Shown one piece after another: positions 9,839 through 52,716 of a stretch of 64,000 nucleotides of DNA. The first letter of the stretch is position 1, and each line of letters begins with the position of its first letter. Under the pieces are notes generated by a model, which saw only the letters and a program-made list of their open reading frames with translations, was not told where the DNA came from and searched no databases. This stretch comes from Buddleja alternifolia (Eukaryota > Streptophyta > Magnoliopsida > Lamiales > Scrophulariaceae), in the NCBI GenBank assembly GCA_019426215.1, contig CM033394.1:41290423-41354422 (forward strand). Direction: 5' to 3'. The translations under genes and the position numbers were made by a program.

Positions 9839-10129
9839 TTAGAAATTAATATAAAAACAAATCGTATTTTTACTACAGAATAATTCATTTTTATTCGTAT
9901 TTATACATACAAGTATTAAGTTGTTCAGTTATTGTTCCCGCACTTTTAGCTGATTTTTTCTTCATAACTTTCAAATAAAATTCGTAAAATACTTAAATGT
10001 CGAATTTTTGTGGTCCCTTATTTAATTAACTAATTTCGAACTTAATAATGTTGATACTTGAAAAATAATTATACTAATCCAAATAAAGCTCTTGAAGTGC
10101 GAGGAGCTATTCATAGATGACTCAAGTTT

Positions 10130-10217
10130 CCAATAATACGCACAATTTCACGCACAAATAGGCGCGATTGCAATCGATTTGGCTGGAGAAGACATTTACC
10201 GTGTTTTCAACCAATCG
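10130..10217 (+). other. probable 5'-UTR exon 1 of the PIG-Y-like gene
   Basis: GC-richer island in AT-rich DNA ending at a strong plant donor, CG|GTAAGT (10218). The following ~120 bp is T-rich with an AGGGTTT leader-type motif and ends in TTTCCAG. The transcription start is not determinable, so the left edge is arbitrary. Linkage to the coding exons at 29.3 kb is inferred from strand, spacing and absence of any other gene. Confidence 0.45.
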
Positions 10218-10340
10218 GTAAGTCAAATTTACGTGTTTATAGTTCCGATTTAGAGTTTATTGTCCCTCCGATTTAGAGCTAGGGTTTCCTGTTGACTATT
10301 GGGAAAATTTTGATTTTTGGGATTTTGATGTAGTTTCCAG

Positions 10341-10413
10341 TCGACTGGCGGCGGAGATACGGCGGTGGGGTTGTGGAAGTCCAATTTTGAAGATTTCAGC
10401 AGCAAGGAACAAG
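10341..10413 (+). other. probable 5'-UTR exon 2
   Basis: Bounded by acceptor TTTCCAG (ends 10340) and donor AAG|GTATCC (10414). It contains a GGCGGCGG-rich stretch typical of plant leaders. It has no ATG in good context, which fits a non-coding exon. Confidence 0.45.
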
Positions 10414-10483
10414 GTATCCTTCTTTCTTGAGTTTTAGTGATAGATAGTGTTATTTGTTAACAGTATAGTAACTACAACAGTTC

Positions 10484-13671: not shown

Positions 13672-14581
13672 GGGAAAATTAAGCAAATAGCAACATTTTG
13701 CATAGCCTTTAGGGAAATAACAACTTTGACTTTTGCCTTTTCTTTTTTATTTCTTTTATTGAGTTGTGGACCTATGTTTTTCTCCAAATACAAATATACC
13801 CTTTCAATGGCCCCCCCTTTTAATATAAGGATAACAAAATAACTTAATTAAATATGTATCGACTTATATACCCTTTTAGTTCAAAATAAACAATAAACCC
13901 AAAATCATTTCTCCCCCCTGATGAAACAACTGCATGCTCCGAGAAAAAAAACAAAAAAAAGAGAAGAAAAAGAAGAACTATACACGACAAGAGAAGAAGA
14001 AGAAGAAAACGAAGAAGAGAAGAAGAAGAAACAGAGTCGAGGTTGAAGGTCCCGCTTATATTGAAGGTCTCTCTCTCTAACTTGTCGTTTTGGGGGCTAG
14101 GGTTTTAACATATCCCTAATTTCACTTCAAATTACACACAAAAAGCTTCATTTGGGTGTATTAATTGTTGAGGTTTTGAAGTTTGTCCAGTCCTGTGCAG
14201 GTGTAGAATTTGTGTGTAATTTGAAGTTTGTGCAGAAATTGTTGAGGTTTTGAAAATTTGAAGTTTGTGCAGAAATCGTTTGGGTGTATTAATTTGATTG
14301 AATTTTGGGGGTGAAACGGTTATAGGATTCGATTTAAAAGGTGATTGAAAAGCTCAATTGATTGTTGTTTAGTGCGTTATTGTTTTATCTTTTTTGGGTT
14401 TTTGAATTGGGGAAACAATTTTAGTTTCATCTTTTAAACAGACGAAAACGTTATATGGTGTTGACGGAAGTCTTCGCGTCGCGAATGGGGGTTATTTTGT
14501 ATATTTGGGCATAATATTTGAAAGTAAAAGTTTTAGTAAAGGAAAAAATGATTTTTTAAAAGCTATTTGCTTAATTATCCC
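13672..14581. repeat. left terminal block of MULE 1, itself TIR-bounded
   Basis: Starts GGGAAAATTAAGCAAATAGC and ends with the inverted form GCTATTTGCTTAATTATCCC. Contains purine-rich GAAGAA tracts (about 13940-14035) and leader-like sequence with AGGGTTTTAAC. The mirror copy is 28491-29317. It may act as the functional TIR/promoter block of the MULE. Confidence 0.75.
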
Positions 14582-14734
14582 ATTTGATTATTATTATTAG
14601 GTTCATAGTTTACACTAGTTCGTGTGTTGTATTGTGTACTAGAGCATAATAGTTTAAAGTAAAGTTTATTGAAGGATAAAAACTAATTGTGTTCAATTGA
14701 ATCTGAATTGTGATTTTTCAATCTTTCTGTTTCC

Positions 14735-16816
14735 ATGCTCCATATAAAGATTCCACGGAATCGGTCTAGGCGGAACTCATCCACTCTTCCCACTCCGAAT
14801 CCCAATCCCAATCCACGGCTGCCGGGTCGTCGGATAGAATTTTCGTCTCCACCGGTAACCCAATCACCCACTCCCACTCTTAATCCCATCTCGGTAAGTA
14901 AATGAAATGATTTCTACTTTACTCTTAATAGTATATTAAATTTGTCTTAGTTTTTTGAAGTATATTGTATAACTTATTCTTAGGTTAATGGCATAAATGT
15001 CATCCCTTGACCCAATCTTATATTGACTCCCAATGAATTTAATTTCATGTGTAAATTGGCGACTCATTGCAAATTGGCAAAAGAAGTAAAATTTATTGAA
15101 GATTGCTTGAAAGATCATCGTGATGGGTTAAATTGGTTTAAGACTTCACAATTTGGCCATCTCTTTGAAGTTGCTCCTTACATAGAAACGTGTCTAAGTC
15201 CATTGTGGATGCTTCTAAGCAGACAAATGCAAATGAACAATAAACTTGAATTGTGGTTTGTTCTTAATGGCACCCCTATACGGTACTCTCTAATGGAGCA
15301 TACACTTATTAGCGGGTTGAATAACTCTCCTTATCCGTCAAAGGTTTTACGTGGTGGTGATGGTTTCGAGGAACGATTCTGCGGAAAAAAAATAACATTG
15401 AAGGTTGTAAGGAATATGCTTAGCAACTTCACTATCCCTGCTGAAGAGGTTGGAGGTATAAGTGGGAGTGTTAGGCAACAAGAGAGGGAGAGCCTTTTGT
15501 TAGACAAGTTGAAGTTAACAGTGTTATTCTTTTTGGCATCTGTGTTATTTAGTCGCAGGTCAGAAGATTGTGAAATAGATCAAGCTTTGGTTGCAATTGT
15601 CGATGACATTGATGTTGCACGCACTTATCCATGGGGTAGGATGAATTATTGTTATCTAATAAAGGAAGTGCGAAAGTTTGAACATCAAAAGACTACGTAG
15701 TTCAGCAAATCCACAATGGACATCTTGTGGCTTCATTCTACCACTAATGGTAATGAAAGTTTTGTATTCCATTGTTAAAACCTGTGTTTTAATTTATGTA
15801 GTTTGTTATTTCACAATTTTGATTGTCCATGTTTGTAGTTGCTGCCGTTTGAATGTATTCCAGCACTGTTACTGAGCATTGGGCGTGTGAGGGATGTTAT
15901 CATTGGCCAATTGCTGAGAATTTGCTATTGGGACACTCAATTCAATTTGAGAAAGCAAGCTCCATCTTTGAGCCAAATTCTACAAGTGGTTGGTAACTCG
16001 AAGGTTAGTGCTTTAAATTTAACATGTTATATATTCTACGTTTTATAACATAGTATTGATTAGTTCTATATTTTCAAGAGTTTCAGAAAATCAGGAGCAT
16101 ACTTACAACGACGGCGGAGGAGTTGCAAGTCAGCCACATGTAGGGTTTTGCCCTTATCGACCAATACCTACCCGTCACTACCGTTGACACCACTACTGAT
16201 CAGTGGACGGCTGTACTATACTTGAGAATGGGGACAGTATATTCTTTGAAGATATTTAGCGAGAAGATGTTGAAGGTCGACATTCGTTCCTTAAAAAAGT
16301 GACTGTCTGAACACATTCCTACACCTGCACAGGACACCGTTCCAGGTGGTTCAACAGTACCTTCCGAGTCTACCAATCATGTGCTTAAAATGCTGGAATC
16401 CTTGATGCAAAATATGTCCGAGTTAAGAAGTGATATGACTCTTCAGAATGAAGGACTACAATGGTTGGAAAAGAAGGTAGAAGAGGTGGTAAAATGGACT
16501 CGGCCTAACCACGTGGAAGAGGAGGAACACCGAGAACATAGTGTGCATAATCGGGATGACAATGATGATTGTGTTGGGCAAGAATATGGTGGGCAGGATT
16601 GGGATGCAGCCGGTAGTTGGGGATGATGATGATCTTCGTGGTGTGCAGAATGATGTTGTGCAGGAACGGGTCGATGATGTTTCGGTTGGAGATAAGGGTG
16701 ATGAACACGGTATATCAAGCACTGTGCCTGATGAAAACAAAGAAAAGAGGGTGAAGAGGAAATCCAAATATATGCTAATTCGTGTGGGCAACTATTTGCA
16801 TTGCAATTTGCTGTAA
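14735..16816 (+). pseudogene. DUF1985 passenger gene, left-arm copy
   Basis: Exon 1 starts at ATG 14735 (MLHIKIPRNRSRRNSS, then Pro/Asn-rich) and ends at TCG|GTAAGT (14893). Exon 2 begins at 14984 and carries the DUF1985 pattern ELWFVLNGTPIRYSLMEHT and later DDIDVARTYPWGR. Exons 15839-16003 and 16087 onward follow, ending in a coiled-coil-like and then acidic tail. Broken by TGA at 15008-15010, a TAG near 16140 (M*GFA against MQGFA in the other arm) and frameshifts. DUF1985 proteins accompany plant MULEs and often precede a Ulp1-type domain; none is seen here. Exact role unknown. Confidence 0.75.
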
Positions 16817-16985
16817 TTACAGCAGACATCAGATCTGTAATTACAGCAGACAGCAGATTGCCTTTGTACATCTGCTGAAATTACAGAAGACTTTGCAAAG
16901 TGCAGAGGCAGTCTGCTGCAGACTTTGCAGAGTACAAAGACAATCTGCTGTAATTACAGCAGATTGCAAACAAACTGCAAAGCAA
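16803..16985. repeat. array of CTGTAATTACAG palindromes, left arm
   Basis: At least three exact copies of the 12-bp palindrome CTGTAATTACAG (and variants such as CTGAAATTACAG) are interspersed with GCAGATTGC and CTTTGCA words that also pair with one another. It sits between the 3' ends of the convergent DUF1985 and transposase genes. The right arm has the mirror array at 25785-25945. Confidence 0.85.
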
Positions 16986-17221
16986 ATCTCATGATTATTA
17001 AATTAAAAAATGAACAAGATTTAACAACTAAAATAAGAAGTGAAGGGTAAATTACAACTTCTCAATACGCATCTTTCAAAATGACAGGTTGCCATTTGAA
17101 CCTCAATTTTCATCTTCTAAAATAAAATGCAACAAAAAAAGCTATCAACAGAAGTTTACTTAGATTAAATTGTCCAATACTCTAAAAGAAATCATAGAAA
17201 CAATAATGGCACAATTTGAAT

Positions 17222-18275
17222 TTAGAATTTGGTTGGGTCTTTCTTTGATTTCTTGCGTTTTGGTTTTTTGGATATTTTCTTGGGAGGTGGTCGCGCCTCT
17301 CCAGTGGAAGCCTTTCTTTTCACCACAGATCTTTCGGCCTTCACCGGATCATCGTGATGCTTAGGAGGAGGTTTCAACTCCTCGGCCTTTATTTCATCGG
17401 GGACGACCAGTTTTGATTGACTTGGAACGGGGTATATGGTCCGTACATATGACGATGCCCATGTAATTTTTGAATAGTATTTTGAGTATAGTTCTAGCAT
17501 AGACGAGCCAATCGGAACAGTTGCAAGGGCGTGATAGCACGGGAGCTTGTCCAATTTAAATACCTCGCAAGTGCACTGTCGATCTAAACAATTGACTAAG
17601 AAGCTTTCCCCTTCGTCAAAGACGAGTTACTCTCTTGTTTGCCTATTTAGTTCTTTATATATCATTTGAAGGGACTCTTGCTTCCTTGCATACAACACAC
17701 TTTCCACCGTTGGAGTTACTAGTTGCGCCGAAGACCCCTCAGAAGCTACTGGATTGGAGTTGGGGAATCAGGAATAGTATTAGAGGGAGTTGGGCTACCA
17801 ACATTACAATTTGAAGACTAAGATGCGCCAGTAGGATTTGACAAGGGAGTTGGGGCAGAGGCTATTGAGGTGTTATCTTGATGAAGGACCGTGGACATTG
17901 ACTCATCAATATTACCGCCCTCGCGACTTTGTGCAAATGTAGTATCATAAACCCTTGTTTCTTCCATGTCCATGTAGAAATCATCATCTCCAGCATTGTC
18001 ATTATCAAAAAGCCCATTGTCAATTCCATCTTCCCTTATTAGCTCAACATATAGAGTGCTCTATTTTTCGATGCATTACAACGGTCCTTAAGATAACACT
18101 TTGCATCAAAATCATTCTCGATATATACGTGACCCGAATCGTTAAATGACGATGGAATGTAACTTAATCTAATATCTGTACTCGTCTGAACAAAAGAAGC
18201 CCTGTCAAATATCCGGTCATGTAAATGTGAAAGGGTTATCGTGTTTGGATCATCTACTATTAACGCATTCTTCAT
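17222..18275 (-). pseudogene. MULE transposase, left-arm copy with catalytic core deleted
   Basis: Starts at ATG (plus 18273-18275, MKNALIVDDP), immediately next to the Copia LTR, and ends KKDPTKF at 17222. The N-terminal part (DSGHVYIENDFDAKC) and C-terminal SWIM end (DKLPCYHALATV, the second SWIM Cys-x-His as CYH) are present. Sequence equivalent to right-arm ~23630-25038, which includes the DDE core, is missing. The join is at about 17745. It cannot encode an active transposase, but both ends match the right arm closely. Confidence 0.8.
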
Positions 18276-18276
18276 T

Positions 18277-18460
18277 TGATTACCGTAGAGAAAGATGAGG
18301 GAATACTTTCTATATTGATATGAAAGGAATACACCTATATATACACACAAGTAGAATCTAAAGTAGGTAAAAAGAAGAAAACATCTTCCTATATTTAAGC
18401 AAACACCTCCCTACATTTATGCCTACTTTTAGCCTTAATATCTGCATTCTTATTATAACA
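18277..18460 (-). repeat. Copia LTR, left copy
   Basis: Minus strand TGTTATAATAAG...GTAATCA, 184 bp, preceded by a polypurine tract GAGGGGGAG directly after the RNase H stop codon. This identifies it as the 3' LTR. It lies against the transposase start codon. The mirror copy is 22903-23100, which carries a ~14-bp insertion. Confidence 0.75.
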
Positions 18461-21400
18461 CTCCCCCTCAAGCTGGAGCATAAATGTTGATCATGCCCAG
18501 CTTGTTACAAAGATAATCAACCCGAACCTTATTTGAAGCTTTTGTGAAAAAATCTCCTAATTGTTCTCCAGTCTTCACATACTCCGTAGAAATGAGATTT
18601 TGTTTCACCTTTTCCCGAACGAAATGACAGTCGATCTCAATATGTTTAGTTCGTTCATGAAACACAGGATTGGAGGTAGTGTGAAGAGCAACTTGGTTAT
18701 CACACCAAAGTTTTGCTGACATTGAGACTTTAAGGCCCATTTCTGTTAATAACTGATATATCCACATTATTTCACATTAAGATTGAGCCATAGCTATATA
18801 CTCTGATTCTGCATTAGAGCGGGATACAACGCGTTGTTTCTTGCTTTTCCATGACACCAAAGAAGACACAATACCCAGTGGTAGATCTTTGATCAATTTT
18901 GGATCTGCCCAATTGGCATTTGAATAGCACTCTATACGAGTGTGACTATGATTTTTATACAGTATACCTCGTCTAGGAGCTCCCTTTAAGTAGCACAAGA
19001 TGTGTTCTAGAGTAGCCCAATGATGAACCGTTGGAGTAGACATAAATTGACTCACAATGCTCACATAATATGCGATATCAAGATGAGTTACTGTAAGATA
19101 GTTCAATTTCCCCACCAACCTTCTATACCTCTCAGGATCCTCAAATAAGTCTCCTTCATTAGTGAGTTGTAGATTAGGTGGCATCAGAGTACTGCATGGT
19201 TTAGCTCCTATCTTTCCTGTCTCTGTTAACAGATCAAACACATATTTCCTTTGTGATAAAAAAATGCCTTTTTTGCTTCTTGTTATCTCCACGCCCAAAA
19301 AATACTTCAACGAACCTAAGTCCTTTGTGTGGAACTGGTTGTGAAGAAAAGACTTCAAAGATGATATTCCCATAGCATCACTTCCGGTAATAATAATATT
19401 ATCTACATATATAACAAGGAGAATAACGCTGGATGAAGAGTGTTTATAAAACACTAAATGATCAGACTTACTCATATTCATTCCGAACTTTTCAATTGCT
19501 TGATTGAATTTGCCAAACCACCCACGAGGGCTCTGTTTCAAACCATACAGAGACTTTCGAAGATGACAAACTTTTCCATACTCTCCCTGAGCAACAAACC
19601 CGGTGGTTGCTCCATGTAAACCTCCTTGAGTAAATCTCCATGTAAGAAAGCATTTTTGATGTCTAATTGGTGCAAGGTTCAATCATGAGTGGCAGCCATA
19701 GACAGGAATAACCGAACTGAGGTCAATTTAGCCATAGGAGAGAAAGTGTCAGAATAATCCACACCATAAGTCTAGGCATAGCCTTTAGCGACAAGGCAAG
19801 CTTTAAGTTTAGCCACAGAGCCGTCGGGATTCATTTTGATCACAAAGACCCATTTACAGCCTATAGTCTTCTTTCCTGCAGGTAAAGTCACTAAATTCCA
19901 AGTATCATTAACATCTAAAGCATTCATCTCTTCTGTCATAGCCGCACGCCAACCAGGATGAGACAAGGCTTCACGAACAGTTTTAGGCAAAGATACAGAA
20001 TCAAGAGAAGCAACTAACAAATATGTAGAAGATGATAAATGATCATAGGAAACAAAAGAGGAAATGGGATATGTGGATTGTCGTTTACCTTACGAAGAGC
20101 AATTGGAAGATAATCGGCATTGTCCGAAGGATCAGATGGCAAAGGAGAAACCGGTGTTGGACATGTAGTAGGAGGATCTCGTCGTCTGGAATAAACATAG
20201 CGAATAGGTGGAAGAGCAATGGCTGGTCCGGTAGGAGCAACACTCGGTGTAGGAGGAACAGTTGGGGACTGGTAGGGTAGTTGGTAAACGAGCAAATTCT
20301 CCCTCTGACTGGCAGTAGGACGAGAAGAAACAGGAAAGAAAGCACAAGTTTCCATGAAGGTGACATCAGCAGATACAAGGTATTTGTTAAGACTGGGACA
20401 ATAACACCAATATCCTTTTTGTAACCGAGAGTATCCTGGGAAAACACATTTGACGGACTTGGGATCTAACTTTGTTACAAAAGGATGCACATCACGAACA
20501 AAGCAAGTACTACCAAATAAACGAGGTTCAATGGGAAATAGGAGTTTTGTGGGGAATAAGACGCTATAAGGGATCTCACCATGAAGAACTGTGGATGGCA
20601 TCCGATTAATCAGAAAACAGGCTGTGGAGACATCATCCGCCCAAAATGGTTTAGGGACATGTGTTTGAAAGAGCAATGCGCGGGTTGTCTCAAGCAGGTG
20701 TCGATTTTTTCTTTCGGCAACCCCATTTTGAGAAGGTGTATCAACACACGAAGATTGATGGAGAATTCTATGTTTAATCATATAAGTCTGAAAGGAATCA
20801 GAGAAGTATTCTTTGGCATTGTCACTTCGTAAGGTACGTACCGAAGTATTAAATTGTGTTTGAATTTCAGCACAGAAAGCAGTAAAATGGGAGAAAAGTT
20901 CTGAGCGATTCTTCATAAAATAAAGCTAAGTCATTCTGGAAAAGTCATCAACAAAAGTAATAAAATATCAAAAATCAGTTTTGTATATAACAGGACAAGG
21001 ATCCTAAAGGTCTGAATGAACTACTTCAAAACGAGAACACTCTTTTATTGACTCTAGAAACATAAGACAAACGATGATGTTTTGCAAACTGACACGACTC
21101 ACAATCTAAAGGCGGTATATTCTGGAATTGCAGACAAAGTTTCTTTAACACGGTTAGAGACGGGTGTCCTAACCGACAATGGGCTTCAAAAGGTGTCATT
21201 ACAACCGAGCAACCAATTGACCTGGGCACCCGTGCCGGAGGATCAAGAATATAGAGACCTTCCGATACATGTCCTCTACCAATAATCTGCTTCGTCAAAA
21301 GATCCTGAAATAAACAATAATCGGGAAAGAATGAGACAACAATTTAGGGCACGAGTAATTTTACTCACAGACATTAAATTAAAAGAGAAATTTGGAAGAT

Positions 21401-22573
21401 TTAAGATAGATGGTAGGGAAAGGGATGGAGTAGCATTAACAATACCAGATCCTAGAATGGTGGATTGAGAACCATCAGCTGAAGTTACATAAGAAGAAGA
21501 GGTGTGTGTTTGAAAGGTAGTAAATATATTAGGATTACCCGACATATGATCGGAAGCTCCCGAGTCAATGACCCATTGTGAGGAGGAGGAAAGGAGGCAC
21601 GAAGTTGGATTACCTGATTCAGCGATGGTGGTGATAGGATGAGATGAGGTTTTTAATGAGTCTTGGTACTGACGAAACTTAGCAAAGTCATCTGCAGAGA
21701 CCGTAATAGACTGTGCAGGGGAGGAGACGGTGGGAGTAGCTGCAATATTAGCGGAACGCGACTTGCGAGATTTGTTCTGCAGTTTGGGGCATGTGCGTTT
21801 GGTATGACCCTCCTCATGACAATAATAGCACTTAACCTTCTCCGTATCCTGACTACCTGTACGGCCTTCTCCTCTGCTATAATTCTGATGAGAGGATCGT
21901 GCCCCTGAGCCAGTATTGCGACTGACAAGAGCACTAGAGACGGGAACCGAGGAAATCACAAAAGTACTTGTATTGGTATGAAGAACTCTAGTAAATACCT
22001 CGTACAAAGAGGAAATGTATGGAAAAAATATGAGATTTGGCAATCTCAAATTGAGGATTGAGCCCTGCCAAAAAATCATAATAGTCATCTTCTCCCGTTG
22101 AGCTTGTTGTACCTTAGCATCAAGATTGAATGGCAACAAAACATTTAATTCTTCATAAACCTTCTTAAAGTTCATAAAATATGCCTGAAGGGATTGATCA
22201 GTTTGCTCAGGACGATAAAACTCCTTACAAACTTCATAAATTCGGGAATATTTCCTTTACCCAAATACAAAAATTCCAAATATTCCATCAGTTCTTTGAC
22301 ATACTCATAGTGATTAATCAGGCTAACCACTTCAGTATCAATAGAATTTCGAATTTGCAAAAATAATCTCGCATCATCTTTTAACCAGTCTTTGCGAGTA
22401 TCATCTTTAGGTGGATCATCAGTAAGATGTTCATCCTTAGAGATACTTCGCAAATATATTCGAATAGTTTTACACCAATCAAGATAATTCGAACCAAGCA
22501 ATTTATGTTCTATAATTCGGGACATCACTGGAACTATATCAATCATAACAACAGTTTTCCTCTCGTCACCCAT
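18461..22573 (-). pseudogene. Ty1/Copia gag-pol, degenerate
   Basis: Minus-strand order: gag from ATG at 22573 (MGDERKTVV), zinc knuckle CYYCHEEGHTKRTC, protease WVIDSGASDHM, GAG-pre-integrase (HCRLGHPS, CESCQFAKHH), integrase core (RSDNAKEYF, NGVAERKNRHLLETTR), reverse transcriptase ([29 protein letters not shown]) and RNase H (SRSNAESEYIAMA) to GMINIYAPA and stop. Integrase precedes RT, the Copia order. The YVDD active site is YVDN, and several stops and frameshifts break the frame, so it is dead. Upstream of gag to 22807 there is leader-like sequence with a G/C homopolymer at about 22731-22742, but no 5' LTR or primer-binding site; the inverted-arm junction replaces them. Confidence 0.85.
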
Positions 22574-22807
22574 AGAATAAGAAAACCCAAGCCAAAATAT
22601 ATGACTCACGCGTAGCAACAACAAATCATAAACAGCAGTAGAAAGAACCAAAACGCAGAAAACAGACACAACTGTTCAAAAAATGCAAACCTAGATCTGA
22701 AAGAGGGCAAATGGAACAGAGAAAACCTGGTGGGGGGGGGGGGCAGAGCAAGAGACGGCGATGCCGGAACAAGCGACCGGAGAGAAAACCGACACGTCAC
22801 GATTAGG

Positions 22808-22902
22808 AGATCTTTTCACAAAGGCTTCAAATAGGGTTCGAGTTGATTATCTTTGTAACAAGCTGGACATGATTAACATCTATGCTCCAGCTTGAGGGGG
22901 AG
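22808..22902 (+). pseudogene. Copia RNase H C-terminus, second copy, opposite orientation
   Basis: Begins abruptly at GGAGATCTTTTCAC and reads LGDLFTKASN, DYLCNKLDMINIYAPA, stop, then polypurine tract and LTR. It matches the minus-strand copy at 18461-18556. This marks the inner edge of the right arm: the duplication breakpoint falls inside the Copia coding sequence, at a shared ATTAGGAGAT. Confidence 0.85.
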
Positions 22903-23100
22903 TGTTATAATAAGAATGCAGATATTAAGGTTAAAAGTAACAGGCTAAAAGTAGGCATAAATGTAGGAAGGTGTTTGCTTAAATATAGGAAGATGTTTTC
23001 TTCTTTTTACTTATTTTAGATTCTACTTGTGTGTATATATAGGTGTATTCCTTTTATATCAATATAGAAAGTATTCTCTCATCTTTCTCTACAGTAATCA
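22903..23100 (+). repeat. Copia LTR, right copy (inverted)
   Basis: TGTTATAATAAG...GTAATCA, 198 bp, the reverse complement of 18277-18460. The transposase ATG (23102) follows directly, so the LTR replaces the transposase's own upstream region in both arms. Any remaining transposase expression would be driven by this LTR or by read-through. Confidence 0.75.
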
Positions 23101-23101
23101 A

Positions 23102-25545
23102 ATGAAGAATGCGTTAATAGTAGATGATCCAGACACGATAACCCTTTCACATTTACATGACTGGATATTTGACAGGGCTTCTTTTGTTCAGATGAGTACA
23201 GATATTAGATTGAGTTACATTCCATCGTCATTTAACGATTCAGGTCACGTATATATCGAGAATGATTTTGATGCAAAGTGTTATCTTAAGGACCGTTGTA
23301 ATGCATCGAAGAATAGAGCACTCTATATGTTGAGCTAATAAGGGAAGATGGAATTGACAATGGGCTTTTTGATAATGACAATGCTGGAGATGATGATTTC
23401 TACATGGACATGGAAGAAACAAGGGTTTATGATACTACATTTGCACAAAGTCGCGAGGGCGGTAATATTGATGAGTCAATGTCTACGGTCCTTCATCAAG
23501 ATAATACCTCAATAGCCTCTGCCCTAACTCCCTTGTCAAATCCTACTGGCGCATCTTAGTCTTCAAATTGTAATGTTGGTGGCCCAACTCCCTCTAATAC
23601 TATTCCAGATTCCCCAACTCCAATCCAACAGCTTCGACTTCTAGACGAAGATAACGCTGAAGATTTTAGGGATCATTATGAATGATGACAGCCGTCAAGA
23701 GTTCAATTTTAATGATGGTATTGACATTGTGATCGGAGCGGAATTCATTGACAAAGCAGAGTTGAGAAATTTGGTAGTAACCTCTTCGTTGAAACATTGT
23801 TTCGATTTTACCATAACGAGATCAAACAATAAAATATTTTCGGCGAAATGTAAAATCAAGGATTTCGAGTGGAGGTTGTATGCGGGGAAGGTTAAAGGCT
23901 CAGATAAATTCTCCTTGCGTATTCATAATAAGGTACATACATGCTCCCGTGTTAGTGCCACAAAAAATAGACACACGAAGTCTACTTCAATGTTAGTTGC
24001 TGATATGTTGGCAAAGGAATTCCCAGGTCAGGCGGATACACCTACGCCAAAGAAAATGTACACAATGCAAAAGGATTATGGCGTGTAGTAACTTACTACA
24101 AAACATGGAATGGCAAAAACATTGCTAGAAGTATTATTAGGGGGGGAGATCTGAATGCTAGTTTTGATGTTCTTCCTAGTTATTTGAATACGTTGAAGAA
24201 GTTGAATCCTGCTACAATCTATCATTTGGTTAAAAATGAGAACAAGTTTACTTCTCTTTTTTTTAGCATTGGGAGCATGAATTGAAGGCTTCAGGTGTAT
24301 GAGGAAGGTAATTGCAATTGATGACATGGTTGAAGACCAAGTATAAGGGCATATTAATTGTTTACACCGCACAAGACGCGAATAAACATTAATATTCAAT
24401 TGCTTTTGGTATAGTTAAATCAGAAAGTGAAGAGTCATGGCAATGGTTCCTGGAGAAACTTGCGGACCTCATACCCGATGATGATGAAATGGTCATCATG
24501 TCAGACAGAAACCAAGGGCTCCTTAACGCAGTTCCTAAAGTTTACCCGAAGGCTCAACACGGTTATTGTGCTTGGCATATTTCTCAAAATATTAAATCAC
24601 GTGTTAAGTCAGGTATATTTATTTCTCAAAATACTATAATTTGCTAAAGTATATTAAAGTCATGCATTAATGTTATTCTTCAAAATTTCCCCATTAATAT
24701 AGGTAGGACCCCTGAAAGAGAAAATGTGCAAAACAGTAGTTTTAAATTGTTCATGGCTTGTGCTGAAGTGTATACTTCAGATGAGTTTGATCGACTGTAT
24801 AAGGTGTTAGGGAATAGGCATCCTGCAGCTGTTAAGTATCTTGAAAATCCCAAAAACAGTCTTGGCCCTAAGAAATGGGCTAGATGCTTCTTTGAAGGTG
24901 TTCGTTACAACATTCTCACTACCAATGGCGCTGAGTCAATTAACTCGACCTTGAGATATGCCCGAAGATATCTGTTAATACTTTTGATTGATGAGATCGT
25001 GGAGAAAATATCTAAGGGGTTCAATGATTACCGAATTGCAACTTCTGAGGGGTCTTCGGCGCAACTAGTAACTCCAACGGTGGAAAGTGTGTTGTATGCA
25101 AGGAAGCAAGAGTCCCTTCAAATGATATATAAAGAACTAAATCGGCAAACAAGAGAGTAACTCGTCTTTGACGAAGGGGAAAGCTTCTTAGTCAATTGTT
25201 TGGATCGACAGTGCACTTGCGAGGTATTTGACTTGGACAAGCTCCCGTGCTCTCACGCCCTTGCAACTGTTCCGATTGGCTCGTCTATGCTCAAAATACT
25301 ATTGAAAAAGTACATGGGCATCGTCATATGTACGGACCATATACCCCGTTCCAAGTCAATCAAAGTTGGTCGTCCCCAATGAAATAAAGGCCGAGGAGTT
25401 GAAACCTCCTCCTAAGCATCGTGATGATCCGGTGAAGGTCGAAAGACCTGTGGTGAAAAGAAAGGTTTCCACTGGAGAGGCGCGACTACCTCCCAAGAAA
25501 ATATCCAAACGCAAGAAATCGAAGAAATACCCAACCAAATTCTAA
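23102..25545 (+). pseudogene. MULE (MuDR-type) transposase, right-arm copy
   Basis: MKNALIVDDPD at 23102 opens a decayed transposase. An acidic linker leads to the N-terminal MuDR-like segment (23678-24088: FIDKAELRNLVVTSS, KCKIKDFEWRLYAGK). The first catalytic Asp region is frameshifted near 24325; then AFGIVKSESEESWQWFLEKL and MSDRNQGLLNAV (second Asp), CAWHI, NILTTNGAESINSTLRYAR, and the SWIM zinc finger CTCEVFDLDKLPCSHALA (25208-25261). It ends in a Lys-rich tail, KKISKRKKSKK-like, with stop at 25543-25545. Many stops and frameshifts. Unlike the left arm it keeps the central domain. Confidence 0.85.
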
Positions 25546-25784
25546 ATCCAAATTGTGTCATTGTTTCTATGATTTCTTTTAGAGTATTGAACAATTTAAT
25601 CTAAGTAGACTTCTGTTGATGGCTTCTTTTGTTACATTTTATTTTGGAAGATGGAAATTGAGGTTCAAATGGCAACCTGTCATTTTGGAAGATGCGTATT
25701 GAGAAGTTGTAATTTACCCTTCACTTCTTATTTTTGTTGTTAAATCTTGTTCATTTTTTAATTTAATAATCATGAGATTTGCTT

Positions 25785-25945
25785 TGCAATCTGCTGTAAT
25801 TACAGCAGATTGCCTCTGCACTTTGCAAAATCTGCAGCAGACTGCCTCTGCACTTTGCAAAGTCTTCTGTAATTTCAGCAGATGTACAAAGGCAATCTGT
25901 TGTAATTACAGATCTGCTTTCTGCTGTAATTACAGCAAATTGCAA
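25785..25945. repeat. array of CTGTAATTACAG palindromes, right arm
   Basis: Mirror of 16803-16985, again between convergent transposase and DUF1985 3' ends. Two exact 12-bp palindromes plus partial copies and inverted CTTTGCA/TGCAAAG words. Confidence 0.8.
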
Positions 25946-28355
25946 TGCAGATAGTTGCCCACCCGAATTAGCGTATATTTGAATTTCCTCTTCACCCTCT
26001 TTTCTTTGTTTTCATCAGGCACAGTGCTTGATATACCGTGTTCATCACCCTTATCTCCAATCGGAACATCATCATCGACCCGTTCCTGCGCAACATCATT
26101 CTGCACACCACGAAGATCATCATCCCCAACTACCGGCTGCACAACGGTTGCATCCCAATCCTGCCCACCATATTCTTGCCCAACACGATCATTAGTGTCA
26201 TCCCGATTATGCACACTATGTTCTCGGTGTTCCTCCTCTTCCACGTGGTTAGGCCGAGTCCATTTTACCACCTCTTCTACCTTCTCTTCCAACCGTTGTA
26301 GTCTTTCATTCTGAAGAGTCATATCACTTCTTAACTCGGACATATTTTCCATCAAGGATTCCAGCATCTTAAGCACATGATTAGTAGACTTGAAAGGTAT
26401 TGTTGAACCACCTAGAACGGTGTCCTGTGCAGGTGTAGCAATGTGTTCAGGCACAGTCATTTTTTTAAGGAACAAATGTCGACCTTCAATATCTTGTCGC
26501 CAAATATCTTCAAAGAATATGCTGTCCCCATTCTCAAGTACAGTCGTCCACTGATCAGTAGTGGTGTCAACGGTAGTGACGGGAAGGTATTGGTCGATAG
26601 GGGCAAAACCCTGCATGTGGCTGGCTTGCAACTCCTCCGCCGTCGTTGTAAGTATGCGCCTAATTTTCTGAAACACTCAAAAACATAGAACTAATCAATA
26701 TTATATTATAAAACGTAGAATATGTAACATGCTGAATTTAAAGCATCAACCTTCGAGTTACCAACCACTTGTAGAATTTGGCTCAAAGATGGAGCTTGCT
26801 TTCTCAAATTGAATTGAGTGTCCCAATAGCAAATTCTCAGCAATTGGCCAATGATAACATCCCTCACACGCCCAATGCTCGGTGACAGTGCTGGAATACA
26901 TTCAAACGGCAGCAACTACAAACATGGACAATCAAAATTGTGAGATAACAAACTACATAAATTAACACGCAGGTTTTAACAATGGAATACAAAACTTTCA
27001 TTACCATTAGTGGTAGAATGAAGCCACAACATGTCCATTGTGGATTTGCTGAACTACGTAGTCTTTTAATGTTCAAATTTCGCACTTCCTTTATTAGATA
27101 ACAATAACCGACCCGAACCGCCCAAAAAACGCCGGTCATCCGCCACTACCCCATGGATAAGTGTGCATGATTAGTAGTTTTATTCAATTTATGTAAAGCA
27201 TATTTTTAATTTGAGTAAACCAAACTTGCTTGATCTATTTCAATTCAAGATAAATATGAGTTTTATTTAATAACACCACTTTTTTGATTTCCTCAACTCA
27301 ATTTTTTTTTTAATTAAATGTACAAGATGTTATTTTGTTTCTACTTACTATTGAACACATAATTATAATTCGATAACCCGCCAAACCGCCCGCTAAAAAT
27401 TGAACACCGACCCGAACCGCTGCGGTTTCGGTTTAATATTTTGTCAACCCGCATTCGGGTCGGGTTGAATTTTTTCCATTACACCCCAATTAGTAACAAT
27501 AATCATCTCCCCATGGATAAGTGTGTGCAACATTGATGCCTGCGACTAAATAACACAGATGCCAAAAAGAATAACACTGCTAACTTCAACTTGTCTAACA
27601 AAAGACTCCCTCTCTTGATGCCTAACACTCCCATTTATACCTCCAACCTTTTCAGCAGGGATAGTGAAGCTGCTAAGCATATTCCTTAGAACCTTCAGTG
27701 TTATTTTTTTTTCACAAAATCGTTCCTCGAAACCATCACCACCACGTAAAACCTTTGATGGATAAGGAGAGTTATTCAACCCGCTAATAAGTGTATGGTC
27801 CATTAGAGAGTACCGTATAGGGGTGCCATTAAGAACAAACCACAATTCAAGTTTATTGTTCATTTGCACTTGTCTGCTTAGAAGCATCCAATGGACTTAG
27901 ACACGTTTCTATGTAAGGAGCAATTTTAAAGAGATGACCAAATTTTGAAGTCTTAAACCAATTTAACCTATCGGGATGATCTTTCAAGCAATCTTCAATA
28001 AATTTGACTTCTTTTGCCAATTTGGAATGAGTCGCCAATTTACACTTGAAATTTAATTCATTGGGAGTCAATATAAGATTGGGTCGAGGGATGACATTTA
28101 CGCCATGACCTAAGAATATGTTATACAATATGTTTCAAAAAACTTAGACAAATTTAATTTACTATTAAGAGTAAAGTAGAAATCATTTCATTTACTTACC
28201 GGGATGGGATTGGGAGTGGGTGATTAGGTTGTCGGTGGAGACGAAAATTCTATCCGACGACCCGGTAGCCGTGGATTGGGATTCGGAGTGGATGAGTTCC
28301 TTCTAGAACGATTCCTTGGCATTTTTATATGGAGCATAGAAATAGAAAGGTCGAA
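25930..28355 (-). pseudogene. DUF1985 passenger gene, right-arm copy
   Basis: Minus strand, same exon layout as the left arm. Exon 1 (ATG at about 28355, MLHIKMPRNRSRRNSS) contains an in-frame TAA (PPTT*). Exon 2 reads ILTPNELNFKCKLATH and keeps CGA where the left arm has TGA. A 387-bp insertion (27107-27493) and a nearby deletion break the exon carrying YCYLIKEVRN. The last exon is an open 248-codon frame (26676-25930) with KIRRILTTTAEELQASHMQ, a predicted coiled coil and an acidic/basic tail. The two arms are inactivated by different mutations, so much of the decay post-dates the duplication. Confidence 0.75.
27107..27493. mobile_element. hAT-like insertion with 8-bp target duplication
   Basis: 387 bp flanked by TAACAATA (27099-27106 and 27494-27501). 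The left arm supplies the empty site at the equivalent exon position (one TAACAATA). One end reads, on the minus strand, TTGGGGTGTAATGG, close to hAT YAGGGGTG ends. The interior has complementary ACCCGACCCGAA / CGGGTCGGGTT words. An internal stretch, CCCATGGATAAGTGTG plus TTGATCTATTTCA, resembles the host exon itself, so part may be captured or filler DNA. Confidence 0.65.
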
Positions 28356-28490
28356 AAATCACAATTCAAATTCAATTGAACACAATTAGTTTTTATCTTT
28401 CAATAAACTTTACTTTAAACTATTATGCTCTAGTACACAAAACAACACACGAACTAGTGTAAACTATGAACCTAATAATAATAATCAAAT

Positions 28491-29317
28491 GGGAAAATTA
28501 AGCAAATAGCTTTTAAAAAATCATTTTTTCCTTTACTAAAACTTTTACTTTCAAATATACAAAATAACCTCCATTCGCGACACGAAAACTTCCGTCAACA
28601 CCATATAACGCTTTCGTCTGTTTAAATGATGAAACTAAATTTTTTTCCCCAATTCAAGAATCGAAAAAAGATAAAACAATAACGCACTAAACAACAATCA
28701 ATTGAGCTTTTCAATCACCTTTTAAATCGAATCCTATAACTGTTTCACCCCATCAAATTAATACACCCAGACGATTTCTGCACAAATTTCAAATTTTCAA
28801 AACCTCAACAATTTCTGCACAAACTTCAAATTACACACAAATTCTACACCTGCACAAACTTCAAAACCTCAACAATTAATACACCCAAATGAAGCTTTTT
28901 GTGTGAAATTAGCGATATGTTAAAACCCTAGCCCCCAAAACGACAGGTTAGAGAGAGAGACCTTCAATATATGGGGGACCTTCAAGCTCTTCTTCATTTT
29001 CTTCTTCTTCTCTTGTCGTGTACAATTCTTCTTCTCTTTTTTTTTTCTCGGAGTATGGAGTTGTTTCATATGGGGGGAGAAATGATTTTGGGTTTATTGT
29101 TTGTTTTGAACTGAAAGGGTATATAAGTCAATAAATATTTAATTAAGTTATTTTTTTATCTTTATATTAAAAGGGGGGCCATTGAAAGGGTATATTTGTA
29201 TTTGGAGAAAAGCATAGGTCCACAACTCAATAAAAGAAATAAAAAAGAAAAGGCAAAAGTCAAAGTTGCTATTTCCGTAAAGGCTATGCAAAATGTTGCT
29301 ATTTGCTTAATTTTCCC
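28491..29317. repeat. right terminal block of MULE 1
   Basis: Mirror of 13672-14581: starts GGGAAAATTAAGCAAATAGC (28491) and ends GCTATTTGCTTAATTTTCCC (29317). It abuts the PIG-Y-like gene's splice acceptor 14 bp away. Confidence 0.75.
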
Positions 29318-29341
29318 CTTCTTTTATGCAGATGAAGTAAA

Positions 29342-31197
29342 ATGCAGGATAAATTGCTTGCTCTTCCAAAGTTTTTATCTTCTAATGGGAGGGCATTTTG
29401 GGGTTGGTTCTTTCTTATAATTGGTTCATTTTCGTACGTGGGTTTTCTCTATGCTGCCGTAATATCAAAGCTTCTGCCTCCATCCGATAATCTTGTCATC
29501 CATGCCATACAAAATGACTGGTACGTTTCTCTTCCATATGTATGCCAATTTTTTTTATTATAAAATAATGGTTTTACTATTTCCGACCCTCTTGGATAGT
29601 TATGATTACTTATATAAGTGTATTGGTGTTTTTTTTCAAGAAGGCTATTCTCCTGTGTGTATGATATTGCTCGCTGTGAATAATCTAGTTTGTCTTTGTT
29701 TTGGTGGAAATAGTGCTTCTTCAGTTGAAGCTCTACGCCTGTCAATATAAACGCTAAGTGAAATACCATATTTGATCAGGAAAAAACTGTAAAAAGGAAT
29801 ACAAACTGGCCGGCAGTTGCCCATAGTTTCTGCAGCAAACGAGGGCATAAAGTTGAATTTAATTAATCAACTTTTATTCTCCTAATTTGCTAGCTTATTA
29901 TTTCTCTTTGTATATTTGGCACTTTTGTCTTTTCTAATTATATGCTCGAGACCTTTTTGCAGTTCGGTGAGATCTTTTGGAAATTTATATGTAAAAAATG
30001 GATAAGCCTGTGGGACTTGCAACCCGCTTGGCGTCGACGATATCAAAAGAAAAGAGTTGCTTGTTATGGTCTTTATTAACTCGTTTCTTAATTAGAATGT
30101 TATATCCATTCCTCTAGATATCTCATTTTTCAGAACAAGGTTGATTTTTTGAGGCATAGTAGAAAGGTGTAACATTGAAGACTAACTTGCTGAATTTCCT
30201 AGGAAACGAGTAAATGATCCACCAAACAGAGGTTGCAATTTTTAAGGTTGTCAGACAGTTTCCTTTTGTCATGCATTCTAAAATCTCAAGTGCGTGTGAA
30301 AGAATGATTCAAACAGGAAAAATAGTAGAATGTAAACTTGATTTCTCCTTTTAGCTTTTGTCCCTCTGTATTACGAAAATCCTTGTGGAACACCAGGCCT
30401 TTTTTTGGTGGGGGGAGGCAAATTTTACACAGCTATTGTTTGTGAGGATAGAATTTCTATATTATCACTTCATAATGGTAAATAAAATGCGGATTTTTTG
30501 TTTGGGTGGAAGTTGGAACCAAGAATAGTTGCAATTGTTGTCACCTTAATGTAGAAAGATAGATACATATGGTTTTCTGTTTATCGAACAAGAATTTATC
30601 TGCACTTATTATTTCATGTTCTTAACATGGATGATTGAGGGGAAAATGTTTGCTGATGTGTGGCAAGTCTAGATGGTTGTTATCCTAGAAACCACATTTT
30701 GGTGGTCTATATATCATGTTTTCGACGTTTTAAACTATAGATAATGATATGATAGATATTCTCACTAGATCAAAATTAGACAAAACCTTTAGCTTTATAT
30801 TTTGCGCCGTAATCTGGACATAGATTCATGGTTTTAGCTTGCCAACTCTCTGCATTTTATTAGTGCTTCGACTCAACCAGAGATCATTTATCTAAGACAT
30901 CTAATCGTTATTAATGATGCATCATTCCATTATTACGAAAAATTCTTTCCTAGATTGGGTATTTTCACATCGAATGATGAGGATCATGAGAATTATTGTA
31001 GGTGAACGATGAGGATCATGAGAATTACTGTAGGTAAAGTTTTCTCCCGTTATCTGTTACCCAGAATACAGAAATAAAAATGATAGATATGTGATTTTTG
31101 CAGGTATTATTGTTTCTTGGTGCCACTGACACTTCCAATCCTCGTCGTTGCGACATATATTCATTGGCTGAGCATGAAATTGTTCAAGCATGCGTGA
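29342..31197 (+). CDS. PIGY: PIG-Y-like subunit of GPI-GlcNAc transferase (two coding exons)
   Basis: Coding exons 29342-29520 and 31104-31197 join as TG|G (Trp) across GTACGT...TTTTTGCAG into a 90-residue protein. It has two hydrophobic segments, about residues 19-42 (WGWFFLIIGSFSYVGFLYAA) and 62-83 (CFLVPLTLPILVVATYIHWL), and ends MKLFKHA, paralleling the mammalian PIG-Y C-terminus, where a LPxTxP-like turn precedes a second helix and a KLFRH-type end. PIG-Y is a small ER-membrane subunit of the complex that transfers GlcNAc to phosphatidylinositol, the first step of GPI-anchor synthesis. The frame is intact with no decay. ATG 29342 is preferred; an upstream ATG at 29332 opens only a 3-codon uORF. 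Identification is from memory of the family. Confidence 0.8.
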
Positions 31198-33000: not shown

Positions 33001-33414
33001 AGGGTATCATATTAGCAAGAGACAATATCAAACATCCCCACCTATGGGGTTGTGTACTTTACCCCATGTCTTAAACAAATATGCAATTGACATCCTCATC
33101 TATGGTGTCGATTGCATTTAACCCCCTACGATAGAATCTTGTGGAATGTTCCTCATTTTATCTGCGTATGTGCCTTGCACATGACATCATTAAGGGTAAA
33201 ATTAGGTATCATATGAGCAAGAGACAATATCAAACACCCCCACCTATGAGGATGTGCACTTTACCCCCATGTCTTAAAATAAATGTGCACCTAACATCCT
33301 CACCTGTGGTGTCGATTGCATTTAACCCCCTACGACATAATCTTGTGGAATGTTCCTCATTTTTCCGGTGTATGTGCCTTGCACATAACACCATTAAAGG
33401 TAAAATTGTCACTC
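33001..33414. repeat. two tandem ~207-bp units
   Basis: 33001-33207 and 33208-33414 align along their length, each opening GGTATCATAT and closing in GGTAAAATT. They share TGGTGTCGATTGCATTTAAC and TGTGCCTTGCACAT. A third, inverted and diverged copy occupies about 34055-34231, with AT- and homopolymer-rich DNA between. Overall this looks like a ~1.2-kb TIR element whose left end was tandemly duplicated. Confidence 0.75.
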
Positions 33415-39227: not shown

Positions 39228-41841
39228 TCAACGACGTGCCCAATCCATTTCATTATGTATTCTAGTTGTTCGATGTCTACCTACACGACGACTGACACGT
39301 AGAGTTTCATAATGGAACAACTCAAAGGGGGGGGGGGGTATTCCAATAGTGTTCCCCTGGCAATGGCGCGTAGATCCCTCTATAAGTTGCTAAATATGGA
39401 CGAATCCCATAATACAGCTTCACATAGTTTGCTGCTTCTACATCTCAGCTCTTGCATACAGATTGAACATGTGAGCAAGGTATTCCAAATTCACTCCATT
39501 TGCCACAATCACACTCCATTTTCCTAAGATTCACAACGTACCTATTCCCACTTCGTCCTCTCATCGGACGTGTGAAAACGTTAGCAGATCGCTCATGATA
39601 ATTAAATGTTTGTACTGCATTATGAGTGGGGCTCTCAGACCAATCTGTGTACATCTTATGCGCATAGCTTGTCCAAGGGAGTCCCTTCTCAAGCATCTCC
39701 CGACCCCCCGCAGACCGCAATTTGAAATGCTCTATGGAACGAAAAAATGTTATCTCTACAATAGCTGTGACCGGAAGATGACGAGCACCTTTGAATACAT
39801 TATTTATGTTTTCAGCCATGTTGGTTGTCATAATGCCACACTGCCATCCTCCATCATAAGCAAAAGTCCATTTTTCTCTGTCAATCGCATTTAAATACTG
39901 ATGAGCATCTCTATCATGTGATTTAATCTGATCCATGGCATTTTCAAACTTTCTTATTTGAGTCGATGAACCAGCTACCCAACATAGGTTCTTTAAGACC
40001 TTATTTCTGAACTGACTATTAAAGTTTGAATATACGTGACGCAGGCAATAGCGATGAACTACTCTAGGAGGGTAAAATTCAGGTATGCTTTCAACAGCTG
40101 AGAGGATTCCAGGATGACGATCAGAAATAAGACAAATGCATTCTTCAACCCCTTGTACAAAATGTTTGCTCAAATTCTCTAGAAACCATTTCCAAGATGC
40201 AAGTGTTTCATCATCTATAATGGCAAAAGCAAGAGGAAATATCTGCTGATTTGCGTCCATGGATGTCGCGATCAACATCTTATGCTTGTATTTTGTGTAT
40301 AGATTCGTTTCGTCTATGCATATGACTTTGCGACAGTGTCGAAATCCATCTATACACTGCTTGAATGCCCAAAAGACATATTTGATCACCTTTTTTTGAT
40401 CATATCTTGTATCATAGTTATCCCATTCAACGACAGTGCCCGGGTTCCATTTTTTGACAGCTCCCAAAAACTTAGGCAATTTTCGTACTGATTCCTCCCA
40501 AGTCCCATAAACAACTTCGCGTGCACGTTTCAAGCTGTACCAAGCCTTAGCATATGGAATATCAAACCCGAATTGATCATTCACCATTGTAATGACGTTG
40601 GCGATCTTGTATGCCGGATCAGTGCGAACAATATTTATCAAAAGGGTAGCAACCAAATTTTTGTCCAAGTTACAGTGATTGCGAGACACTAAATCCAAGA
40701 GACATGTATGAGACCCATAATACTTTGTGATCTTGAAGCATCGAATATTTTCTTTGTATATTGCTCGGAGGGTCCATCTGCATTTAACTGTTGAGTTTTT
40801 GTGTTTGCATTTCACTCTCCATAGTGTCGGGTTACTTAACTCCACGACATACTCGCGCTTCGCATGTCACACCGAGTAATTTTTCACAACACAGATGAGA
40901 TGTTTTTTGTCTTTAAAGACCCTGTGTAAGTCAAGATTTCCTTTTCTGAAATCATAAAACTTGCCCTTTGATGCAGCTTGGATATCAATAGAGTCTGCTT
41001 CTACCTCTGGATATGTTCTGGAGTAGAACGGTGTGACTGGATATAACATGTCCACATTAACTGACGAAGGTATTGGATCATTAACGGGCTCTTGATGTTG
41101 CAGTGATGTTCTCCAACATGACATTGACATCGACATCTCCCTCATCATCAGGTAGAATAGGGTAGTCAATTTCATTTAGCTCTGAATCACTCAATTCTGA
41201 ATCATTAAACATTCTTGTTGTGGCTCATGGGCAAATTCAGCATTATCAGGCTCTCTATAACTCTGCGATTCAGTATTGTGTTGCCAATTTACCCCAATTT
41301 CATGTGATGATGTAGAGGCACCTACACAATAGTCATGCAACCCAAAACTTTCCATTCCTTGTGTCACCGCTGGCAAATCAGGTATACCAGGTTGTGTTAA
41401 AAACGACATTAAATGGTCAAGCTCTTGGCTAATGGGCATCTCTTGTGTTAAAAGTGACGTGCACGGTCCCCACTCTTGGGACAAAGGCATATCCTGAACA
41501 ATATTGTTGTACCTTTCATCTTTCTCAATATAGAGATGTAAGCTATTAATCTCACCATCAAGATCCATGAAAAATCTTAGACTTTCATCATCGGTTATCT
41601 CCAAAATGGATTCTTTTATCACAGATCGATACTCACATGAATACTTAGCAAATACTTTCAGCGAAAATCGATCAATATCTATTCGAGTTCGCATATACAA
41701 TCTCGCCAGTAAATCAGTAATGTTTGTCGAACGTAGTAATCTCATATACCCAACTGGAGGAATGCTATATGTGATAGAATTTGACTCTTGTAGTATTTGA
41801 CCTACCGAGTACACCATAACATCAATTTTGCTGAGGTTCAA
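39228..41841 (-). pseudogene. MULE 3 transposase
   Basis: The N-terminal exon (41841-41191, MNLSKIDVMVYSV) has a PB1-like segment as in MULE 2. The central frame 40845-39445 holds the catalytic region (KVICIDETNLYTKYKHKMLI, first Asp; ISDRHPGIL, second Asp; CLRHVYSNFNSQF; MTTNMAENINNVF) and the SWIM finger CDCGKWSEFGIPCSHVQSV. A frameshift at about 39445 moves the end, YYGIRPYLATYRGIYAPLPG, into another frame. A C/G homopolymer of ~12 (about 39328-39339) lies just before the final HNEMDWARR at 39228. Breaks also occur at 41180-41190 and 40845-40867. Closely related in plan to the MULE 2 transposase. Confidence 0.85.
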
Positions 41842-52109: not shown

Positions 52110-52716
52110 CCTGGATTGAAAAATATGTAATAACACATAATTAGATTACGATGACTTCATTAAAATATTAGCCGCTAAAGTTTCTAATGATTAAAAATTA
52201 TAACATAAAATTATAATAAATTCGAAACTTCATAATTCATAGTAAACTACACAAAATTTTGCAAATTAAACAAAATCATATAAAAATTCTAAAACTACAC
52301 AAAAAATACATGAACCTTGTCATTCAAAATTGAACCTAAAATGATATACTATATCATACTTCAAAATTAAACTAAAAGAAAAACACATTATTGAAATTCG
52401 GCTAAATTATATAAAAAACACTAAATTAAAAAGTTTACTAACTAAAATTAGACTAATATCATAATTGCATTACATAAACTAAATTGTATATAATTAAAAT
52501 TTACCTTTTAAATATTTTGAAGAAGAAAAAACGAACACAAAATTTACTTGAAGATGTTGGAAGATAATGCTCAGTGTATAATTTGGCGTATCACAAAGTA
52601 TCACAAACTAAATTTTGCGTATGACAAACTAAATTGTATATCAGTAGCCAAAGTGATAGTAAATTGTATATCAGTAGCGCCTTTGGCTAAGGCACAAGGG
52701 GGTTTTATACCCAGCT

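Follow-up and report, generated by a model that had tools for sequence, protein, structure and literature searches.

Among transposon rearrangements that shut down their own family, the classic example is Mu killer. As described in the sections of the published report drawn on here, it is a partly deleted and partly duplicated MULE whose two outer ends trace back to a single element end; this is the mudrA-adjacent end, duplicated so that either side has about 1.3 kb of mudrA, and the rearranged locus silences MuDR (PMC3440606). Read-through from a flanking gene as the trigger of this silencing is itself disputed in published work. According to the same sections, Skibbe et al. reported flanking-gene read-through in maize plants that failed to silence and antisense transcripts arising inside Mu killer in plants that did silence, and they left open what minor, longer hairpin transcripts contribute (Skibbe et al. 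2012, PMC3440606).

A first-pass annotation of a 64,000-nucleotide stretch of the Buddleja alternifolia genome (contig CM033394.1), the whole of which is called the window here, proposed a Mu killer-like hairpin locus whose arms are inverted MULE copies. The structure proved real and well resolved, with an architecture like that of Mu killer. A Mu killer-like function is possible, and judged from the sequence it is not the likeliest reading on present evidence. Set against the cited description of Mu killer, the Buddleja locus is alike in its same-end outer termini (the same terminus and subterminal 1.8 kb stand at both ends), its rearranged or missing centre, and its flanking host gene(s), and in part in its inverted transposase sequence, of which the N-terminal piece and the tail are duplicated. 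One difference from Mu killer as described there is that duplication here affects the passenger (DUF1985) side, an end situated past the passenger and away from the transposase start, whereas Mu killer duplicates the mudrA-adjacent end. Its arms of 4.9 and 6.5 kb are also 4.8% diverged, its spacer is the interior of a Copia element, and the transposase core appears to sit in one arm. Within the same genome, pairs on C10 at 32.40 and 32.56 Mb resemble the locus: in each, two copies of the family lie in opposite orientations within a few kb of each other. Judged from coordinates only, the pair at 32404808-32411308 also has the same end outward on both sides, whereas the pair at 32559663-32567459 differs from the locus in having its ends inward, with about 2.7 kb matched per side and 2.3 kb in between.

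Geometry and content of the inverted repeat

Self-comparison of the window confirmed the inverted repeat with the outer coordinates first assigned to it, 13672 and 29317, which correspond to C5:41304094-41319739. The left arm (13672-18564, + strand) runs from an outer MULE end through a DUF1985 passenger remnant and then the tail and an N-terminal piece of the transposase to a Copia LTR and RNase-H tail. The right arm (22799-29317, - strand) mirrors this order and has two further stretches, one of 1,406 bases of transposase and another of about 430 bases. The gapped alignment falls into three blocks, pairing 13672-15559 with 29317-27539 (89.6%), 15646-17745 with 27107-25042 (92.7%), and 17742-18564 with 23635-22799 (95.1%). 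Chance is excluded as the origin of the repeat because, of 28 ungapped inverted pairs found, 25 are listed and 24 of these sit in the arms, the longest covering 694 nt at 97%. Over 4,650 comparable sites the arms differ by 217 substitutions, 157 transitions and 60 transversions (K2P 0.048), and these differences, together with the indels of 1,406 and about 430 bases that set the right arm apart, make a mirrored assembly of one sequence unlikely, and we rejected it. Plant substitution rates of about 2.5e-9 to 1.3e-8 per site per year would translate this divergence into roughly 2 to 10 million years.

Both outer edges, at 13672-13691 on the + strand and 29298-29317 on the - strand, are the GGGAAAATTAAGC terminus of one and the same element end, and in relatives this terminus adjoins unrelated flanks. 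Further inward, the passenger is represented by a frame with DUF1985 in the left arm (15023-15700, + strand; PF09331, 70.7 bits) and by a fragment in the right arm (27546-27887, - strand; PF09331, 41.7 bits). No ULP1 peptidase domain was found in the frames tested; DUF1985-bearing MULEs are presumably kin to the Kaonashi/ULP1 MULEs. The sequence of about 430 bp at 27109-27538 (no strand assigned) is peculiar to the right arm; at that place the left arm and the relatives have about 85 bp.

The initial description of inverted copies of the same MULE transposase holds for two parts of the gene: the N-terminal piece, which in the left arm spans 17742-18283 and mirrors 23094-23635, and the tail, which mirrors the right arm from 25042 onward. 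The middle is a right-arm possession. A DBD_Tnp_Mut match (30.6 bits against a cut-off of 25), within 23678-24085, belongs to the right-arm-only stretch at 23636-25041 (1,406 bases, + strand), and the left arm has lost the counterpart of this stretch, leaving a 4-bp overlap at the joint (17742-17745). A Plant_all_beta match reached 21.2 bits, under its cut-off of 30. In the relative L042 the MULE domain match lies about 1.2-1.5 kb past the point corresponding to 23100, which is inside the right-arm-only stretch, and by this position the transposase core would also be confined to the right arm. Because 23636-25041 is missing from the left arm, the core would form a one-sided bulge in any hairpin. 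The right-arm transposase is itself split into short frames.

The spacer proposed between the arms proved to be 4,234 bases long (18565-22798, - strand), with the correction that it is a Ty1/copia interior whose LTR and RNase-H tail belong to the arms. It comprises the leader, gag, protease region, integrase, and reverse transcriptase. In profile searches the Ty1/copia-type pol domains RVT_2 (101 bits), SH3_retrovirus (65 bits), and Pol_BBD (49 bits) exceeded their cut-offs, and matches to rve (integrase core) and zf-CCHC (zinc knuckle) fell below theirs. Two LTRs in direct orientation were not found around this interior; it is flanked instead by two inverted copies of the 3′ LTR, at 18284-18460 (177 bp, - strand) and 22903-23093 (191 bp, + strand), each bordering on the MULE joint. 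From the centre outward, the order is RNase-H tail, polypurine tract, and LTR (22799-23093, mirrored at 18284-18564), followed by MULE transposase from 23094. We take the 5′ LTR as missing because the spacer ends in the 5′ leader, while a related Copia, L071, has an LTR-matching block (a weak match of about 76%) upstream of its leader.

The PIG-Y gene at the right edge

The complex had first been placed in the 5′-UTR intron of a PIG-Y-like host gene. The gene itself stands (PF15159, 66.3 bits), with coding exons on the + strand at 29332-29520 and 31104-31197, both within the window. For the upstream exon that such an intron requires, we found no support: the interval between 9.9 and 13.67 kb contains no donor scoring 8 of 9 or better, and the putative 5′ exon region at 10050-10450 has no other match in the genome, in a paralogue or elsewhere. 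The acceptor AG of the first coding exon ends at 29331 and is a good one, with a pyrimidine content of 0.88. Only 14 bp separate it from the MULE; the branch point is therefore probably within the MULE end, where the motif TTAAT stands at 29307. Folding of the acceptor region gave no signal (z -0.41). The coding exon has one paralogue, on C2, at 86%, with similarity beginning at 29340, near the exon start. The public model P0008 (Bualt05G0120100) matches the chromosome 5 PIG-Y copy at 100% over 68% of the query; compared with the exons called here, it uses a later donor and has exon 2 out of frame.

These observations bear on whether the repeat matters mainly for the splicing or expression of PIG-Y, with the MULE end supplying the branch point or even the promoter. 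We regard such a host-gene effect as possible and hold it tentatively. The close, pyrimidine-rich acceptor, the TTAAT motif inside the MULE end, and the point at which similarity to the C2 paralogue begins all agree with it, whereas the missing donor and the lack of a paralogue match at 10050-10450 argue against it, and the paralogue on C2 could make up for any loss.

Both arms descend from one internally deleted MULE

The common ancestry of the arms is recorded in two joints. The LTR/MULE joint (23091-23096, + strand; 18283/18284 in the left arm) was found by pattern search, at up to 3 mismatches, in two places in the 854-Mb genome, and these are the two arms. Across the same site the MULE is uninterrupted in 20 of 29 fetched relatives; the other nine had no match to the anchor used, and among them L060 and L064-L068 nonetheless align from 23094. 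The internal-deletion joint (25969-25974, + strand, with the joint itself at 25971/25972; near 16775 in the left arm) also gave two pattern matches in the genome, again the arms, and of the 40 places scored, drawn from 212 candidates, none but the arms spans it, each of the rest matching just one of its sides. Since the arms share this joint where relatives hold extra DNA between its sides (about 11.9 kb at C8:24.03 Mb, 20.6 kb at C10:4.71 Mb, and 4.4 kb at C11:6.34 Mb), the founder was an internally deleted copy. Copies at C16:11.86, C13:8.85, and C3:52.83 Mb have only about 1 kb or less between the joint sides, and they represent different deletions because the neighbouring transposase is absent from them. 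Both arms thus descend from one internally deleted, DUF1985-carrying MULE that already had the Copia inside its transposase gene, and two unrelated MULE insertions are rejected by the two joints that only the arms share. The 854-Mb genome holds no further copy of the Copia-bearing MULE joint that would show movement of the Copia-bearing MULE.

In trees of separate segments the arms group as sisters with a support of 0.999 in the inner segment (28 relatives) and 0.985 in the mid segment (26 relatives). Support is weaker, at 0.81, in the fourth segment (8 relatives); there, partial relatives match an arm at 96-97% over 316-390 sites, and the arms match each other at 95.1% over 962. The outer 1.8 kb leaves the arms nearly unresolved, the arms being 94.6% alike and the left arm 95.2% like L011 in a tree of 21 relative rows, among which six pairs are overlapping fetches of one place. 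Quartets in this outer segment number 5-8 for the arm pair and 0-6 for each alternative, and over 1,460 sites the right arm has 49 unique changes vs 21 in the left. Gene conversion or a mosaic is possible for the outer part. Transversions are scarcer in the inner 819 bp, with one vs 59 of 3,831 in the rest (p = 0.0002). Between the arms, C-to-T differences occur more often in CG and CHG contexts than in CHH ones (p = 0.027 and 0.0004); we rejected a methylation-decay signature specific to the locus, as most of the dispersed pairs examined have a similar CG lean.

DUF1985-bearing MULEs elsewhere in the genome are like the locus in their termini, passenger region, and transposase (85-95% DNA identity). 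Where both ends of a relative are readable, in four cases, the two ends differ from each other, unlike those of the locus, and three of these four are bounded by a perfect 9-bp target-site duplication (TSD; L014/L045, L022/L047, and L038/L054, the exception being L037/L053); a fifth relative, L024/L055, is truncated at one end. Around the palindrome there is no TSD, with 4 of 9 positions agreeing in place and 6 of 9 when offsets are allowed, a score that random flanks reach in 16% of trials. Given the perfect TSDs of the relatives, its lack here is expected if the outer ends stem from two insertions, and the result points to two insertions with later loss of the centre more than to transposition of a finished palindrome.

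We lean, by a modest degree, toward an account in which a Copia-bearing founder MULE would have given rise to a second copy inserted close by in opposite orientation, upstream of PIG-Y. The centre would then have been deleted, from the 5′ leader of one Copia to the RNase-H tail of the other, a loss that included both MULE 5′ ends and the DNA separating the copies. Later changes would have cost the left arm 1.4 kb of transposase and added about 430 bp to the right arm, leaving a decayed relic with local siRNA potential. This account is supported by the arm-only joints, the sister relationship of the arms in the inner and mid segments, the Copia domains in the spacer, the shared outer terminus, and the absent TSD; it is weakened by the poor resolution of the outer 1.8 kb, the inner scarcity of transversions, and the sole copy of the Copia-bearing MULE. 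An inverted duplication in situ is a less probable origin, although one to be taken seriously: fold-back or template switching in the repair of a break inside the nested Copia, perhaps in the course of transposon gap repair, would have mirrored the outer half of the MULE. It would suit a single founder copy whose joints are found nowhere else and an inversion joint that falls inside the Copia, but copying does not require that both copies stop exactly at the MULE terminus, as they do, and a TSD would be expected to persist around a single insertion. That the palindrome formed elsewhere and moved in as one unit by way of two identical MULE ends is very unlikely, since the two intact-looking, correctly oriented outer termini that speak for it come with no TSD and neither joint has a second copy in the genome.

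siRNA potential and proposed silencing of the MULE family

The arms pair perfectly in 69 runs of 21 nt or more (3,061 nt in total, the longest 172), with 1,681 perfectly paired 21-nt windows, and the stem could be a source of siRNAs if it is transcribed. The MULE part contains 1,585 distinct paired 21-mers, of which at least 536 occur in L069, at least 237 in L040, at least 200 in L041, and at least 41-45 in each of L064, L065, and L068, all lower bounds since the loci are pieces. Pairs of relatives 98.7-99.6% alike exist in a segment where the arms are 97.5% alike, among them L042/L046 (99.3%, and about 92% to the arms) and L064/L065 (99.6%). With equal rates assumed, some relatives appear younger than the arms. 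The near-identical pairs belong to more distant subfamilies, which share few stem 21-mers. For L040 and L041, the nearest copies, the comparison included no near-identical sister.

The likeliest reading of the locus is a nested-TE inverted pair, now decayed, that has the potential for local siRNA production, as opposed to a proven family silencer. As a decayed, non-autonomous relic, it would most likely contribute, through dicing of any read-through stem, to siRNAs and methylation at the locus itself, rather than causing strong silencing of the family elsewhere. The stronger proposal, that read-through from the PIG-Y promoter makes a multi-kb hairpin whose siRNAs silence the MULE family in trans, we consider improbable. 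From the likeness to Mu killer on which it was built, the same-end outer termini and the partly deleted founder stand, as far as the cited sections describe that system (PMC3440606), and the paired 21-nt windows, the many stem 21-mers present in L069, L040, and L041, and a host exon on the + strand 14 bp away would all suit such a silencer. Silencing as a function is unsupported, and against it stand a stem that is without the transposase core, a PIG-Y 5′ exon and promoter that are putative, relatives (L042/L046 and L064/L065) that look younger than the arms in the same segment, and substitution contexts between the arms that resemble those of dispersed copies. The report cited above, in the sections used here, also places flanking read-through at Mu killer in the plants that did not silence (Skibbe et al. 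2012, PMC3440606). More doubtful still is a natural, long-lived analogue of Mu killer in a woody eudicot, in which a same-end inverted MULE fixed beside the acceptor of PIG-Y, a gene of GPI-anchor biosynthesis, would silence its closest subfamily through read-through hairpin siRNAs.

The Buddleja locus reproduces the unusual same-end architecture of Mu killer independently and in another plant, and it does so with the order of steps visible, from internal deletion and the nested Copia to inverted pairing and loss of the centre. If small RNAs do not map to it, this architecture alone would be insufficient. If they do, the locus would offer a natural and datable test of the mechanism and persistence of such a silencer.

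The PIG-Y gene and other coding frames

In the public gene model of the chromosome 5 PIG-Y copy (P0008, Bualt05G0120100; window 29332-31197), exon 2 is out of frame, and a standard donor at 29521 would preserve the PIG-Y reading frame. Beyond this gene, comparison of the window with itself revealed two direct copies of about 200 bp each, lying side by side at 33003-33407 and about 89% alike. A domain search identified MULE and SWIM domains in two long frames, at 39445-40845 on the minus strand and 47563-49461 on the plus strand, which by self-comparison of the window are about 67% alike in opposite orientation. Another frame, at 51255-52136 on the minus strand, matches the plant mobile domain family PF10536 at 104 bits.

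Substitutions between the arms

Transversions between the two arms are far rarer in the 819 bp nearest the spacer than in the remainder of the arms; transitions are similar in the two portions.

Family copies on C10 and the internal terminus

More oppositely oriented copies of the MULE family lie on chromosome C10, at 32404808-32415562 and 32559663-32567459. Within the former, the interval 32404808-32411308 has the same MULE end pointing outward at both sides with a separation of about 6.5 kb, and in the latter two family copies of about 2.7 kb face one another with 2.3 kb between them.

Each arm also carries a second, reversed copy of the MULE terminus about 0.9 kb inward of its edge (window 14562-14581, mirrored at 28491-28510). 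The reversed internal terminus recurs in relatives L011, L012, L013, L014, L017 and L022 from the same genome. It is a feature of the MULE family, and is perhaps an old nested end.
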